Origin: a virus
Reading direction: 5' to 3' (one strand)
Length of the DNA: 25,859 bases
Virus record (IMG/VR): IMGVR_UViG_3300022843_000061
Coordinates: 1 to 25,859 of that record
Shown here: piece by piece, positions 4,529 to 25,011 of the stretch
Layout: each line of letters begins with the position of its first letter
Numbering within the stretch: position 1 is the stretch's first letter
Made by a program: the position numbers and the translations under genes
The notes under the pieces: generated by a model
Database searches by the model: none
Told to the model about the DNA's origin: nothing
The model's input: the letters and a program-made list of their open reading frames with translations, nothing else

Positions 4529-5506
4529 TCACAACTCAAATCCCATCTGTTCCGGTTGCGTTGTCTCGGTCGGCGGTTCCCAAATCCACGGGCCCGAGAC
4601 CGTGGGCAGTTGCCAGATCACGCCACGCATTTGCTGCTGCCAGTGGATGTACTCCGTTTCCCAGCAGTTTGAGAGCGCGTGTCCGCTGGGCCATCCCATC
4701 AGCCATCCCACAAATCCGGGATTGAGCCTCGCCTTCCGCCAATTCCCCGCGCGCAACCATCGTCGCAAAGTGGTCGCAGGCACGTTTGATATCGCGGAGT
4801 GAAATAGCTGGCGCGAGATCGGGCGAGTGACTAAGGACGGCGGCCCATGCGGCGCTGTCTCCAGGGCCGGGTGGTGAAACGTATGGGCGACCCTTGGAAG
4901 TTGATCCTCGCGTTTCCTTGTCGATCCGTCTGGATTGGTCGCCTCCAAAGCCATCCCCGGTGTGTCTTTCCAATCCCGTGCCGCCGCGGTAGGCCACGCA
5001 GAACCACCGCAGCCGTTCGTGCGCCGCGCCAGTTTCAGCCGCTGAGAATGCGCCCACCGAAGACGTGTAGCCCATGTCTCGTAACTCTCGCAGCACGGAC
5101 TCGGCGCCGAGGGAAATGTGCCCGGCGACATTCTCCAGAAAAACCCATCGGGGCTCGACCTCTTGGATAATCCGGGCAACGTCGGGCCAGAGGTGTCTGT
5201 CGTCGTCGTGGCCCTTACGCTGTCCTGCGGCGCTGAACGGTTGGCATGGATATCCGGCGAGGATAGTGTCGCAGATGCCGCGCCAAGGCTTTCCGTCGAA
5301 GGTGGTAATGTCGTCCCAGATCGGGGCAGGGGCAAAGTATCCGGCGCGTTGGGCTGCGATGATTGCGTCTTGAGGGGCTTTTTCCCACTCGACAAAGCAT
5401 CGGGTTTCAAATCCGGGTTCTGCGAGTTGCAATCCCATGTCGAGCCCGCCTGCTCCAGCACAGAGGGATAACCCGGCAGTTGGTCCGGTTTGAATATCCA
5501 TGTCAC
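4529..5506 (-). CDS. Second open frame overlapping the C5-methyltransferase, with LNPGFVGWLMGWP motif
   Basis: In another frame of the same strand an open stretch covers the entire methyltransferase gene. Its start is unknown; GTG 5506 is the best in-frame candidate near the methyltransferase start, and the frame stays open to 5950. From about 5160 downstream it reads like a real protein: SSPDGFFWRMSPGTF, SAWPTAAARDWKDTPG near 4998, RKREDQLPRV, LNPGFVGWLMGWP at 4726-4688, and SGPWIWEPP near 4597. From memory, the WPTPxARDWKD / DQLPR / LNPxFVEWLMGWP pattern occurs in phage and prophage proteins found with or next to C5-methyltransferases, function unknown. The N-terminal half has no recognisable feature. 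Whether it is translated separately cannot be told here. Confidence 0.5.
   Translation of the reverse strand: MTWIFKPDQLPGYPSVLEQAGSTWDCNSQNPDLKPDALSSGKKPLKTQSSQPNAPDTLPLPRSGTTLPPSTESLGAASATLSSPDIHANRSAPQDSVRATTTTDTSGPTLPGLSKRSSPDGFFWRMSPGTFPSAPSPCCESYETWATRLRWAHSQRLKLARRTNGCGGSAWPTAAARDWKDTPGMALEATNPDGSTRKREDQLPRVAHTFHHPALETAPHGPPSLVTRPISRQLFHSAISNVPATTLRRWLRAGNWRKARLNPGFVGWLMGWPSGHALSNCWETEYIHWQQQMRGVIWQLPTVSGPWIWEPPTETTQPEQMGFEL
4536..5501 (-). CDS. DNA C5-cytosine methyltransferase
   Basis: 321 aa. It transfers methyl groups from S-adenosylmethionine to cytosine C5, probably to modify phage or host DNA against restriction. Family motifs in order: SAM site SLCAGAGGLDMGL (about 12-24), catalytic loop AGYPCQPFSAAGQ (about 82-94, nucleophile in PCQ), WVFLENVAG (about 119-127), ERLRWF (about 162-167) and LLGNGVHPLAAA (about 279-290). 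The target recognition segment between the last two is about 110 residues. ATG 5501 follows the upstream stop by one base; ATG 5528 is an alternative with a somewhat better spaced GGA. The gene is crossed by a second open frame (separate entry). Confidence 0.95.
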   Translation of the reverse strand: MDIQTGPTAGLSLCAGAGGLDMGLQLAEPGFETRCFVEWEKAPQDAIIAAQRAGYFAPAPIWDDITTFDGKPWRGICDTILAGYPCQPFSAAGQRKGHDDDRHLWPDVARIIQEVEPRWVFLENVAGHISLGAESVLRELRDMGYTSSVGAFSAAETGAAHERLRWFCVAYRGGTGLERHTGDGFGGDQSRRIDKETRGSTSKGRPYVSPPGPGDSAAWAAVLSHSPDLAPAISLRDIKRACDHFATMVARGELAEGEAQSRICGMADGMAQRTRALKLLGNGVHPLAAANAWRDLATAHGLGPVDLGTADRDNATGTDGI

Positions 5507-6360
5507 AGTGCCATCCTTTTCGCCGCATCGCTCAATTCCATCCCCTTGCCGACCTCGGCCGCAACAACCAGCTTTCGCTTCTTCAGCCCGTCGAGGATTG
5601 CGTTTGCGGTCTTTTCCGGCACGGCCAATCCATAGCGCAGGGCGCGGGCCGCTGACATATCGGCGGATCGGAGAATGATGATTTTGAGGGCCTGGTAGTC
5701 GATCGCGGTGATTTTGCCGTTGAGGACATACTTGGGGGCCCGGCCTCCACCGGTGCGAACGGCGGTGTATGCGATCTGCCTGCCTGCGACGATTGGAATG
5801 CTGTGCTGACCTATCGAAACGAATTGATGTTCCTGGAATAGCCCGACTGTCTGGGCGAGCAGGTCGAGGTCCGCGCTCTTGCTGCGGTCGAATCCGATCT
5901 GTCCGAGATGATAAATGCAGACGTTCCCGCTTTGTGCGTGCTTTGCCCACTCCAGAAACTCTCTGACGCCGTTGATAGCGGTTCCGAACGCATCACGGAC
6001 CACTGAGGAATGCGAGAGGCCACGTTTTTTTTGTTCGTATGGTAGGCGTTTTGCGTTGTCAGGGTCTTTTTGTCCATTAAATTCAATGGCGCGCTGCACT
6101 TCATAGATTGCTGGCAGGCCCGGTCCTTTGGCGTGACAGGCCGTGCGGACGGCACCTTGATCCGCCAAGGCTGAGATAGCCCGGCGCACGGTGCTGAGAT
6201 CGACACCCACCGCCTCTGCGATGTCGGCGCCACCGGCTTGGATCAGTCCATCGGGATCCGCCATTGCCGACAAGTGGAGCAGAACCGCGAGCTGCGCACC
6301 CTTGAAGCCTTGGAAGTCGACGCCAGCCGCTCGTCCGCTTGTGATCCTGTCAGCCCGCAT
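5503..6360 (-). CDS. Winged-helix DNA-binding protein, probable replication or regulatory role
   Basis: 285 aa, ATG 6360 directly abutting the previous stop. Residues about 20-80 (LAVLLHLSAMADPDGLIQAG, DIAEAVGVDLSTVRRAISAL, DQGAVRT) form a classic winged helix-turn-helix. A central region of about 100 residues (GLSHSSVVRDAFGTAINGVR onward) ends in a beta-rich part. The C-terminus has another helical segment (EKTANAILDGLKKRKLVVAA) that looks like a second DNA-binding wing. Phage replication initiators and helicase loaders often have this layout, but no specific family is identified. It lies in a run of three such proteins. Confidence 0.8.
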   Translation of the reverse strand: MRADRITSGRAAGVDFQGFKGAQLAVLLHLSAMADPDGLIQAGGADIAEAVGVDLSTVRRAISALADQGAVRTACHAKGPGLPAIYEVQRAIEFNGQKDPDNAKRLPYEQKKRGLSHSSVVRDAFGTAINGVREFLEWAKHAQSGNVCIYHLGQIGFDRSKSADLDLLAQTVGLFQEHQFVSIGQHSIPIVAGRQIAYTAVRTGGGRAPKYVLNGKITAIDYQALKIIILRSADMSAARALRYGLAVPEKTANAILDGLKKRKLVVAAEVGKGMELSDAAKRMAL

Positions 6361-22081: not shown

Positions 22082-22127
22082 GACGCTTCCCCCACGCCCG
22101 GTCATCGCAAGCGTGGGGTTAGGCGTC
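22082..22127. terminator. Bidirectional hairpin between convergent genes
   Basis: CCCCACGC (22090-22097) pairs with GCGTGGGG (22111-22118); GACGC (22082-22086) and GCGTC (22123-22127) extend the stem. It lies between the end of the rightward run (22079) and the end of the tail spike gene (22119), the usual site for a shared terminator. Confidence 0.65.
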
Positions 22128-24782
22128 TTCGACAAGTATATCAAGGATAGAGAAATATCCGGGGTCCATAGCCGTAGTTCCTCTGCGCCGTACCGTTATA
22201 TAGAGGGATGTGCCGCTGGCGGTAATAGTGTCGGTTACCTCCATAGTGATGTCCTGAAAGATACGATCAGCACCGGCTAAGAGTTCAAAGCCGCCCACCG
22301 TAGTCCCGTAAACTACATCGAGACTAGGCGCGGCCTCACCCAATATATCGTCATTCCTGATATTGAGTGTGCAAAGGTAATCCTGCCCGCTAACGACTGT
22401 GATTGCCGCAGAATTGCACACACCCTCAAATGAAGTTGCCGATGGGCTAAACCTTAATGCGGTCCCGCCAGAGTCATACGCAATTGTACCCGTCGAAGTG
22501 GCCTCAAAATCACCCGTGTTATCGGTGCTGAAATCTTCGGAATAGATGAAAGCGGCGGCGGTCGTGATTGACCATGTGTCGTATGACCTACCGGCCCTCA
22601 CAAAAACATCTGTTTGCGTGGACGCACTGCTTGACGATGTGTCTCTGACCCAAAGGTACTCGTTTGCTTCGATCACTGCGGGTGCAGTCTGCCAATCGGT
22701 GATAACCGTAGAACCCCCGACATCAGACGTAATGCGTAATTCTGGTGCCCCACTACCGCCCTGCACAGATGCGAGCACTCCATAGCTAGAGGCCCCTCCT
22801 GCGCTGTTGAGAGGACTGGTGATCTGCACCGGCCCTTGCGTCGTCAGGGTGCTGACCACTGCCCCTGTGTCGTCAGTGAATGCAGGCATGGTGCAAGTAT
22901 TGATCGACGGCATATCGTAAGTTCCAGCGTCGTAATCCACAACACCATCCAAGTCATTGCGGATATACCTTGATACAAACTCGTCAAAGGTCGTTGGCGT
23001 GTAATCACCTGTGCCGCCGCTAAAGTAACCACTCGCGCTTTCGCCACCTGATGCAACCGTCTTATTTGTTCCTGTACCTGTGCCTGAGTTATCGAATGAC
23101 TGTCCGATATTATTGTGAAACAAACTTAAAGACGGTGCTGCTGTAAAATGGGTTTTAATAGACGTAGTTGGGGAGGAAGTTGCGGAGGCGTCCTCAACAG
23201 TCAGGTTGTCACTTAGAATACCTCTGATTGACGCATAGAGCCATATGCCTTGGGCAACACCACCATACATCCGATTGAGGGCTACGATTGGATCATTACG
23301 CCAATTATCTGCGCCGCTGCCAGCGATATCCTCAAGGAAGATCATCTGCATCCAAACACCATCTTGGTTAGCCTCTGAGAAGATATCGTTACCTATAATT
23401 TCCCAATCGTCGACTACCTTACCGACCTGATAAGCCTGCAAGAAGTCGGCGTGAGCCGGTTCCACTCTGACATAGACATTTGATCCCGAACTTGTGATAT
23501 TTTCAACTAGCGAGATGATCGTCTCGCCGCTACCTACTGATACAATCGTCGCTGTGTAGTCGTTTGCACCACCCACGCCGGGGTAGTTAAGGCCCGCAGG
23601 GATTGTTGTCGTGCTCTCCGATAGGTTCAATAGGAATGTATCCGTTGCAGCACCGAACTTATCACTATTCAGCGTCATCTGGTCTGTGCCAGTGTCTATT
23701 GAGATAACGGAAACTTCCGGGGGCGTGATGTTGCGCGGCGTGTGCATCTTATTAAAATTGAACTTTGAACCATTAGGATGTGCCCCGTCGAACCTTGCAA
23801 AATCCTGTGTGAACTGCGTGAAAGTATTATGCTCAAATACCATCTTTCCAGTCGTGCAGTCCCACAAAGACAAGCCGCGCGACGCATCTTTGAATGTGCA
23901 GTTCGTGACTGTGAATGTTCCGGCACAAACCGGGCCAGAGTTGGCTCGCATGAGGTGTCCACCCCATTTACTGTCAAACGCAGCGCCGTGTTCCGCATAG
24001 ATGGCTGACAGACCACCATCAAAAATACAGTCGTTGAAGGTCACATCGCCGATAGTACCGCGAAAGTACAACCCACCCGCATTATCTGGATCACTGCCAG
24101 TCCTAGTTCCATCCCCGTTGAGGGTTCCGGGTTCAAACTGAGCCAACCAGTCTACGCCCTCGAAGTGTAAAAATTGGATGTCTAGTAATGTCTTTGTGTT
24201 AGCATCTGAGCCGGTGCCGATAACCATGCGCGGTCGGGACGTTGTGTCTTCGTACGTTACCGTCATAGTGCTAGTCAAAGCGTAATTAGTACGCCCCGAA
24301 ACCTCCGTAAACTCCCCCGCCCATAGCTGGTCACCGCCTGCGCGAGCTTTGACTGAGTAGCCGTCCCAATACCCTCCGGCCTTCGCTATAACAGCGGTTA
24401 TAATCTCCCCGAGTTCTCCAGATGCGGTTGCATCCGGCACCCAATACCAAACACTTGCCTCGGAATTTATCGTAGCATTGAACTGCTTTCCGGTTGTGGT
24501 GGTGCATTGTAGAACAGCCGCATCGGGCGCACCGTCAGCGCCGGTAAACTCCAAACGGCCAGAGACAATAACCGGCGTGTGTGAACCAAGCGAACCACTA
24601 ATGAGGCTATCGTACGAAGATAAGGCAACTCGAAATCCTGTCGCATCAACCGGACGCCATCCACCAGTACCAACAGGCTGTGTCGTGCCCATGTCAGCCG
24701 ATTGGTTAGCTACAGTAGCAGCTACTCCACCACCTACCCGGTTGATGCCGATTTTCATGTCGCCGGATATGCCCATGCTCAT
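22119..24782 (-). CDS. Tail spike / tail fibre protein with beta-helix
   Basis: 887 aa. It binds and possibly degrades the host surface polysaccharide at the virion tip. The N-terminal 50 residues (GDMKIGINRVGGGVAATVAN) are probably the tail-attachment part. From about 200 to 350, short repeats with Asn/Cys-x-Phe turns, such as DVTFNDCIFDGG, FTVTNCTFKDAS and MVFEHNTFTQF, indicate a right-handed parallel beta-helix. The middle continues with DDWEIIGNDIF and GIWLYASIRG. The C-terminal 170 residues (FIYSEDFSTDNTGDFEATST onward) look like a beta-sandwich carbohydrate-binding domain. ATG 24782 has GAGGA seven bases upstream. Base composition is more AT-rich than its neighbours, as expected for a freely exchanged host-range gene. 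Confidence 0.88.
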   Translation of the reverse strand: MSMGISGDMKIGINRVGGGVAATVANQSADMGTTQPVGTGGWRPVDATGFRVALSSYDSLISGSLGSHTPVIVSGRLEFTGADGAPDAAVLQCTTTTGKQFNATINSEASVWYWVPDATASGELGEIITAVIAKAGGYWDGYSVKARAGGDQLWAGEFTEVSGRTNYALTSTMTVTYEDTTSRPRMVIGTGSDANTKTLLDIQFLHFEGVDWLAQFEPGTLNGDGTRTGSDPDNAGGLYFRGTIGDVTFNDCIFDGGLSAIYAEHGAAFDSKWGGHLMRANSGPVCAGTFTVTNCTFKDASRGLSLWDCTTGKMVFEHNTFTQFTQDFARFDGAHPNGSKFNFNKMHTPRNITPPEVSVISIDTGTDQMTLNSDKFGAATDTFLLNLSESTTTIPAGLNYPGVGGANDYTATIVSVGSGETIISLVENITSSGSNVYVRVEPAHADFLQAYQVGKVVDDWEIIGNDIFSEANQDGVWMQMIFLEDIAGSGADNWRNDPIVALNRMYGGVAQGIWLYASIRGILSDNLTVEDASATSSPTTSIKTHFTAAPSLSLFHNNIGQSFDNSGTGTGTNKTVASGGESASGYFSGGTGDYTPTTFDEFVSRYIRNDLDGVVDYDAGTYDMPSINTCTMPAFTDDTGAVVSTLTTQGPVQITSPLNSAGGASSYGVLASVQGGSGAPELRITSDVGGSTVITDWQTAPAVIEANEYLWVRDTSSSSASTQTDVFVRAGRSYDTWSITTAAAFIYSEDFSTDNTGDFEATSTGTIAYDSGGTALRFSPSATSFEGVCNSAAITVVSGQDYLCTLNIRNDDILGEAAPSLDVVYGTTVGGFELLAGADRIFQDITMEVTDTITASGTSLYITVRRRGTTAMDPGYFSILDILVEDA

Positions 24783-24792
24783 GTCGTGTTCC

Positions 24793-25011
24793 TCAAGTTG
24801 GCTGGCCAAGGACCGCCGTGAAGTATTCTAACGCTGGCCGTCCCGCGCCCTTGCCCGTGAATAGCACACAAGTCAGGCCCAACCCATCACTTCCGGTTAG
24901 CGTCCATGTTTTACGTTTTGGATTGGCCCAAACGCGCAGACCAATGCCGCTGAGAATATGCGCGTCTTGAACAACCTCAGCGAACCGGCCCTTGAGGGTG
25001 AATTCGATCAT
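24793..25011 (-). CDS. Small exported-type protein (72 aa as read; N-terminus lost to a frameshift)
   Basis: As sequenced, ATG 25011 opens MIEFTLKGRFAEVVQDAHIL then VWANPKRKTWTLTGSDGLGL and TCVLFTGKGAGRPALEYFTA. No ribosome site precedes it. The same frame continues upstream with ILAAAFAVVATQADAQSIEC, a signal peptide with an ADA-Q cleavage site and a second cysteine, but it lacks a start. The likely full protein is about 100 aa, secreted to the periplasm, with the two cysteines forming a disulphide. From memory, this ECG...WTLT...G..C layout belongs to small exported phage proteins near lysis genes. It lies between the holin region and the tail spike. Confidence 0.75.
   Translation of the reverse strand: MIEFTLKGRFAEVVQDAHILSGIGLRVWANPKRKTWTLTGSDGLGLTCVLFTGKGAGRPALEYFTAVLGQPT

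Follow-up and report, generated by a model that had tools for sequence, protein, structure and literature searches.

A single gene in the 25,859-nucleotide window (the whole stretch of viral DNA analysed, IMG/VR record IMGVR_UViG_3300022843_000061) very probably encodes the two subunits of one C5-cytosine DNA methyltransferase (MTase) that is split between two overlapping frames with twin starts; the chains would assemble into one methylating enzyme. Two selected frames, a partition of the MTase motifs between them, homology of the second product (beta) to MTase C-terminal halves and the start architecture can all be read directly from the sequence. The MTase frame, designated A, is an ORF of 330 aa at 4536–5528 on the minus strand. 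An earlier note on this DNA had described a second frame of 325 codons lying across the C5-MTase gene; this frame, designated B, is present at 4529–5506 on the same strand, in phase +1 relative to A, and runs from GTG 5506 to a stop at 4529. Its stop-to-stop span is 487 codons, with 4529–5950 (minus strand) uninterrupted. Every motif quoted for it in that note was found in frame B; SSPDGFFWRMSP coincides with the ENV codons (5158–5123), and frame B is still open beyond the LGNGV codons (4664–4644). The features of the locus are:

4536–5501, minus strand: frame A, proposed alpha subunit, C5-cytosine methyltransferase of 321 aa from ATG 5501 (330 aa from ATG 5528); PF00145, phrog_363 and AF2 model, start taken from relatives.
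4529–5506, minus strand: frame B, proposed beta subunit of 325 aa from GTG 5506, +1 to A; phrog_27243 and phrog_1008, +1 in 173 of 174 loci, omega_B 0.17.
5499–5506, minus strand: twin start site GTGACATG; from the sequence, with offset starts in 98 relatives.
5514–5518, minus strand: Shine-Dalgarno-like AAGGA; from the sequence.
5241–5249, minus strand: frame A motif IV, catalytic PCQ; invariant in the 38-sequence alignment A4.
5127–5135, minus strand: frame A motif VI, ENV; E and N invariant in alignment A4.
5123–5158, minus strand: frame B SSPDGFFWRMSP, overlapping the ENV codons; from the sequence, B being weakly constrained in segment IV–VIII.
5007–5021, minus strand: frame A motif VIII, HERLR; R165 invariant in alignment A4.
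4955–4996, minus strand: frame B WPTAAARDWKDTPG module, proposed target-recognition core between motifs VIII and IX; W, T, D and K at least 90% conserved, omega_B 0.09.
4682–4726, minus strand: frame B LNPGFVGWLMGWPSG, proposed as motif IX; conservation of at least 90% at LNP, LMG and P, hhalign 95.2% to actinophage MTases.
4644–4664, minus strand: frame A motif X, LGNGVHP; G281 invariant in alignment A4.

Elsewhere in the window, an 896-codon ORF (22119–24809, minus strand) has no PHROG match; the rest of the record is that of an ordinary phage, with terminase, RecT-like and replication genes.

Frame A encodes the catalytic chain. It matches PF00145 (Pfam, E=1.5e-33) and phrog_363 (5e-58, residues 20–308) and contains motifs I–VIII and X, including the motifs I, IV (PCQ), VI (ENV) and VIII and the catalytic fold that mark a C5-cytosine MTase. 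Similarity to solved MTases stops at residue 186, after motif VIII. The AF2 model of A (pLDDT 73.5, pTM 0.68) comprises a confident catalytic domain, disorder from about residue 176 to 233 and a helix at the C-terminal motif X, and no small (recognition) domain is seen in it; Foldseek aligned this model with M.HaeIII and M.HhaI (E 1.4e-13) over only ~171–177 columns. Frame A does not combine its catalytic domain with a target-recognition region (TRD) and motif IX, and among 173 loci motif IX was found within frame A in a single case.

A search with the 325-residue product of frame B returned phrog_27243 (4.9e-29) and phrog_1008, labelled 'DNA methyltransferase' (1.5e-16); the latter was matched by all 41 members of the B alignment (A2). 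The idea that B belongs to a known family accompanying phage MTases holds, and the earlier note had missed the recognition region and motif IX within it. Two blocks are conserved in B: WPTPxxRDxKDTPG...DQLxR, at the position of a TRD, and LNPxxVEWLMGxPxGW, the counterpart of motif IX, which resembles motif IX of M.HhaI. Searches of Pfam and NCBIfam gave no family match for frame B, Pfam and PDB profiles did not recognise its motif IX, and profile searches with B and the actinophage C-terminal halves against PDB sequences gave no MTase match. By hhalign (95.2%), B is joined to the EWMMGWPxGW motif IX region of actinophage MTases, both single-chain and split. Homology also links the B family to the IX–X end of mycobacteriophage Tweety gp72 (phrog_1008, 3.9e-51), where the IX block lies between the catalytic domain and motif X; LittleB, Dylan, Lilbooboo and Twister carry the block too, in downstream +1 genes that all end with motif X, and Tweety gp72 and these halves all match phrog_1008. 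Most likely, judging from these sequence relationships, the blocks of B supply the small DNA-recognition domain that is absent from A; the WPTP modules are proposed, by their position, to be the target-recognition region. Modelled alone with 41 homologues, B gave a poor AF2 model (pLDDT 54.8, pTM 0.26) and no Foldseek match, so a small-domain fold for B is putative.

The label 'unknown function' for phrog_27243, the missing Pfam match and the unpredicted fold would fit a different role for B, as a separate protein (for example in anti-restriction or regulation) overprinting an MTase that is complete in A. We regard this as very unlikely, since A is without a small domain and motif IX, the core of B shares homology with the C-terminal half of MTases of both the single-chain and the split type, and the partition of motifs is systematic across loci. 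B holds the recognition region and motif IX that are missing in A, and the pair is thus probably one enzyme. Complementation between MTase fragments is well documented (PMC3404938), which makes assembly of A and B in trans plausible.

In relatives, frame B contains from 1 to 8 WPTP-type modules (for example at L083:2960-4090, L012:2998-4209 and L068:2017-3213), and the same DNA read in frame A is a hydrophilic low-complexity linker. These runs are reminiscent of the multispecific MTases of Bacillus phages, which have TRDs in tandem. Mixed forms were also observed: Tweety gp72 (L226:1565-2677) and MidnightRain gp84 (L227:1741-3195) have motifs IX and X in the catalytic frame and a run of PTP modules in the +1 frame. 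Most of their PTP modules lie in +1, so these genes are not purely single-frame, and the coding frame of the recognition region has switched more than once. The families phrog_1008, phrog_27243 and phrog_26627 apparently consist mainly of frame-B products; their labels, 'DNA methyltransferase' or 'unknown function', probably come from choosing one of two overlapping frames.

The arrangement is conserved across relatives, which were collected in three ways: by searching viral contigs with B alone, by searching viral contigs with A alone, and by searching bacterial genomes (mostly Rhodobacterales) with the B alignment. Where both matches were present, B was +1 to A in 173 of 174 loci, and A and B overlapped by at least 300 nt in 169 (median 1,043 nt). 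The second frame is not broken by stops in homologous MTase genes: it is usually open along the whole gene, and the B profile was matched in the +1 frame by 207 of 207 A genes, including 33 fetched with A alone and without a B tblastn match. Motif X lies in A and not in B in 148 of 173 loci, and the combination of motif X in A with an IX-like block only in B occurs in the window and in 135 loci; in two loci (L008 and L013) frame B ends with motif X. Named phages show the same phase relation: in each of the 12 records examined, the annotated MTase CDS overlaps the B core, and the core is +1 to it. The hosts include Paenibacillus, Mycobacterium, Escherichia, Salmonella, Klebsiella, Pseudomonas, Burkholderia, Bacteroides, Lacticaseibacillus and Microbacterium. 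Annotators give A (RcMcLean), B (Cr-LKS3, Tunturi_1) or both (Arcticfreeze gp56/gp57), and genome annotation usually lists one of the two frames. Rare loci (L042, L035, L044, L055 and L212) depart from this arrangement, in that B shares the phase of A, A is interrupted early, or A holds motif IX; these are candidates for assembly errors or recent decay. In Ochi17 (gp73/gp74, L215:1534-2293) annotation divides the MTase into two pieces (I–VI; VIII and X) that lie in different frames and do not overlap, and the match to the B core is in phase +1 relative to gp74; this gene is possibly broken or misread.

A stop-free +1 frame arises with P=0.013 when the synonymous codons of A are shuffled. Scored against a B profile built without the window sequence, the real +1 frame reached 240 bits, compared with 85 +/- 13.5 bits for 2,000 shuffles (maximum 139; z 11.5). 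That shuffled genes still score ~85 bits indicates that part of the similarity to B is inherited from A.

Both frames are under purifying selection, as judged from sequence divergence between relatives. In 32 close pairs, omega_B given an A-nonsynonymous change was 0.17 (p ~3e-114), and omega_A given a B-nonsynonymous change was 0.16. Across 48 pairs (15,105 codons), differences at A codon positions 1/2/3 numbered 2123/1017/2319. When relatives are compared pairwise, changes in A do not fall mainly at third codon positions as they do in neighbouring genes, and synonymous-site variation is reduced: in the pair L083/L086 the counts were 43/19/32 in the MTase and 20/12/54 in a flanking gene with the same protein identity, and in L115/L121 they were 11/5/9 in the MTase and 18/9/66, 4/4/40 and 7/3/34 in neighbouring genes. 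Constraint on the two frames varies along the gene, with A dominating in I–VIII and B in VIII–IX. From the start to motif IV omega_B was 0.48 (p 2e-5); in IV–VIII it was 0.71, which is not significant and leaves little amino-acid constraint on B; in VIII–IX it was 0.09, compared with 0.42 for omega_A; and from IX to the end both were strongly constrained (omega_B 0.12, omega_A 0.05). The frames thus take turns, A in the catalytic half and B in the recognition half, with both tight at the end. Within IV–VIII, 39 non-redundant loci contain one stop in the B frame, compared with 54.6 expected, while the +2 control frame contains 131, compared with 127.1 expected.

These results bear on whether B is a by-product, its frame kept open by base composition and its conservation inherited from A. 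The ~85 bits reached by shuffled genes count in favour of such an account, but it has a negligible probability given the 240 bits of the real frame, the low omega_B conditional on A, the stronger conservation of B than of A in VIII–IX and the lack of stop avoidance in the +2 frame; the shuffle, omega and stop-avoidance tests refute it. A chance ORF is likewise rejected by the +1 conservation, the conditional omega, the shuffle scores, the avoidance of stops and the profile matches in all 207 genes. The earlier suggestion of a true dual-coding gene rather than a chance open frame is borne out by the shuffle test, the +1 conservation and the selection on both frames.

Turning to translation, the window has twin starts 5 nt apart, the GTG of B at 5506–5504 and the ATG of A at 5501–5499; relatives place the start of A at this ATG and not at ATG 5528. 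The TGA of an upstream ORF (5505–5503) overlaps the GTG of B, and AAGGA lies 7 nt before this GTG and 12 nt before the ATG of A. The starts of A and B are nearly coincident in 98 relatives, the start of B following that of A by 4 nt or preceding it by 2 or 5 nt, and the N-terminus of B is conserved as M[STA]W or MWI[LI]P. In other clades, the start of B lies inside A. Among the 98 twin-start relatives, the stop of an upstream ORF falls within -25 to +12 nt in 79, and a Shine-Dalgarno-like 4-mer is present within 18 nt in only 27; together these counts suggest reinitiation after the upstream gene, and coupling to that gene may matter more than a Shine-Dalgarno sequence. That B is kept free of stops in the weakly constrained IV–VIII segment points to its translation from upstream of that segment.

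The same observations weigh against a programmed +1 frameshift, by which ribosomes starting in A would slip into B after motif VIII to make a single chain, B having no start of its own. Constraint on B that is concentrated after VIII and weak in IV–VIII agrees with such a shift, and Tweety gp72 is an example of a fused chain in which motif IX falls between VIII and X. However, stops in B are avoided upstream of any shift site while the +2 frame is at expectation, the start of B is conserved with near-coincident start codons in 98 loci, the shifted chain would be without motif X, which sits in A and is strongly constrained, and the split actinophage MTases use separate start codons for the downstream half. 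A frameshift fusion is therefore unlikely, and is mostly rejected by stop avoidance, start conservation and constraint by segment.

Returning to two subunits encoded by one gene, alpha (frame A) would provide SAM binding and chemistry through motifs I–VIII and X, and beta (frame B) would provide the target-recognition region and motif IX. Ribosomes would initiate at either the beta GTG 5506 or the alpha ATG 5501, probably reinitiating after the upstream ORF. We infer that beta is translated, that alpha and beta assemble as a heterodimer and that this heterodimer methylates the phage DNA, most likely as protection against host restriction. More speculatively, these genes could represent a large and mostly unrecognised class: phage enzymes that have both subunits of an obligate heterodimer overprinted in one gene, with a shared start that ties their expression together. 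With its varying number of WPTP modules (1 to 8), beta would then be an exchangeable cassette for multi-specific recognition, its evolution bound to stay compatible with the alpha frame. We consider this broader proposal possible, though somewhat short of an even chance.

Long same-strand dual-coding genes with evidence of selection have rarely been documented in DNA phages. Conserved in phages of Paenibacillus and Bacteroides, in coliphages and in Rhodobacterales prophages alike, this gene family is a strong natural model of gene overprinting. It probably also reveals, in the +1 frame, the location of the missing recognition half of many annotated phage C5-MTases. Public records give either frame under one name, and cloning or synthesis from the annotated frame alone likely yields an inactive enzyme.

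In the open-access literature we found no description of an overlapping split-MTase arrangement in phages. Out-of-frame coding within phage methylase genes is known from the hidden HNH endonuclease of the ShiLan domain (PMC11855218); that case involves a homing insertion whose HNH nuclease has no relation to the domains of the methylase itself, unlike the gene described here, and an insertion of this type was rejected for the present locus, which has no insertion and no HNH. Paenibacillus phage Arcticfreeze has both overlapping frames (gp56/gp57), each called DNA cytosine methyltransferase in GenBank, but its B begins within A and not at the start of A; the available text of the 48-genome paper (PMC6070908) yielded no discussion of this overlap.

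Among characterised enzymes, M.EcoHK31I has its small chain encoded in another frame within the gene of its large chain, and the locus here likewise consists of one stretch of DNA read in two frames, both under selection. According to PMC3404938, which cites Lee et al. 1995 for the enzyme, the large chain of this YGGCCR C5-MTase carries motifs I–VIII and X and a predicted TRD, with motif IX alone in the small chain. The window and 135 loci share the two chains, with I–VIII and X in the large one and IX only in the second. Compared by description only, M.EcoHK31I differs in that the recognition-like WPTP module here lies in the second chain (as the segment VIII–IX omegas indicate) and not in the large one, that the second chain here spans nearly the whole gene from a shared start site, and that the present family occurs in phages of many hosts. 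M.AquI (CYCGRG C5-MTase, alpha/beta) is a natural split in which beta holds the distal recognition region and motifs IX and X (PMC3404938); it resembles our pair in combining a catalytic chain with a chain bearing a distal recognition region and motif IX, and differs in the location of motif X, which here is in frame A except at L008 and L013. Finally, in the split actinophage methylases (LittleB gp79/gp78, Dylan gp7/gp6, Lilbooboo gp32/gp33, Twister gp79/gp78) the second gene is also in +1, with PTP modules, an EWMMGWPxGW motif IX and a phrog_1008 match, but the two genes overlap by only 32–209 nt and motif X is in the second. Compared at the sequence level, MTase arrangements grade from fused genes, by way of partial overlap, to complete overlap.
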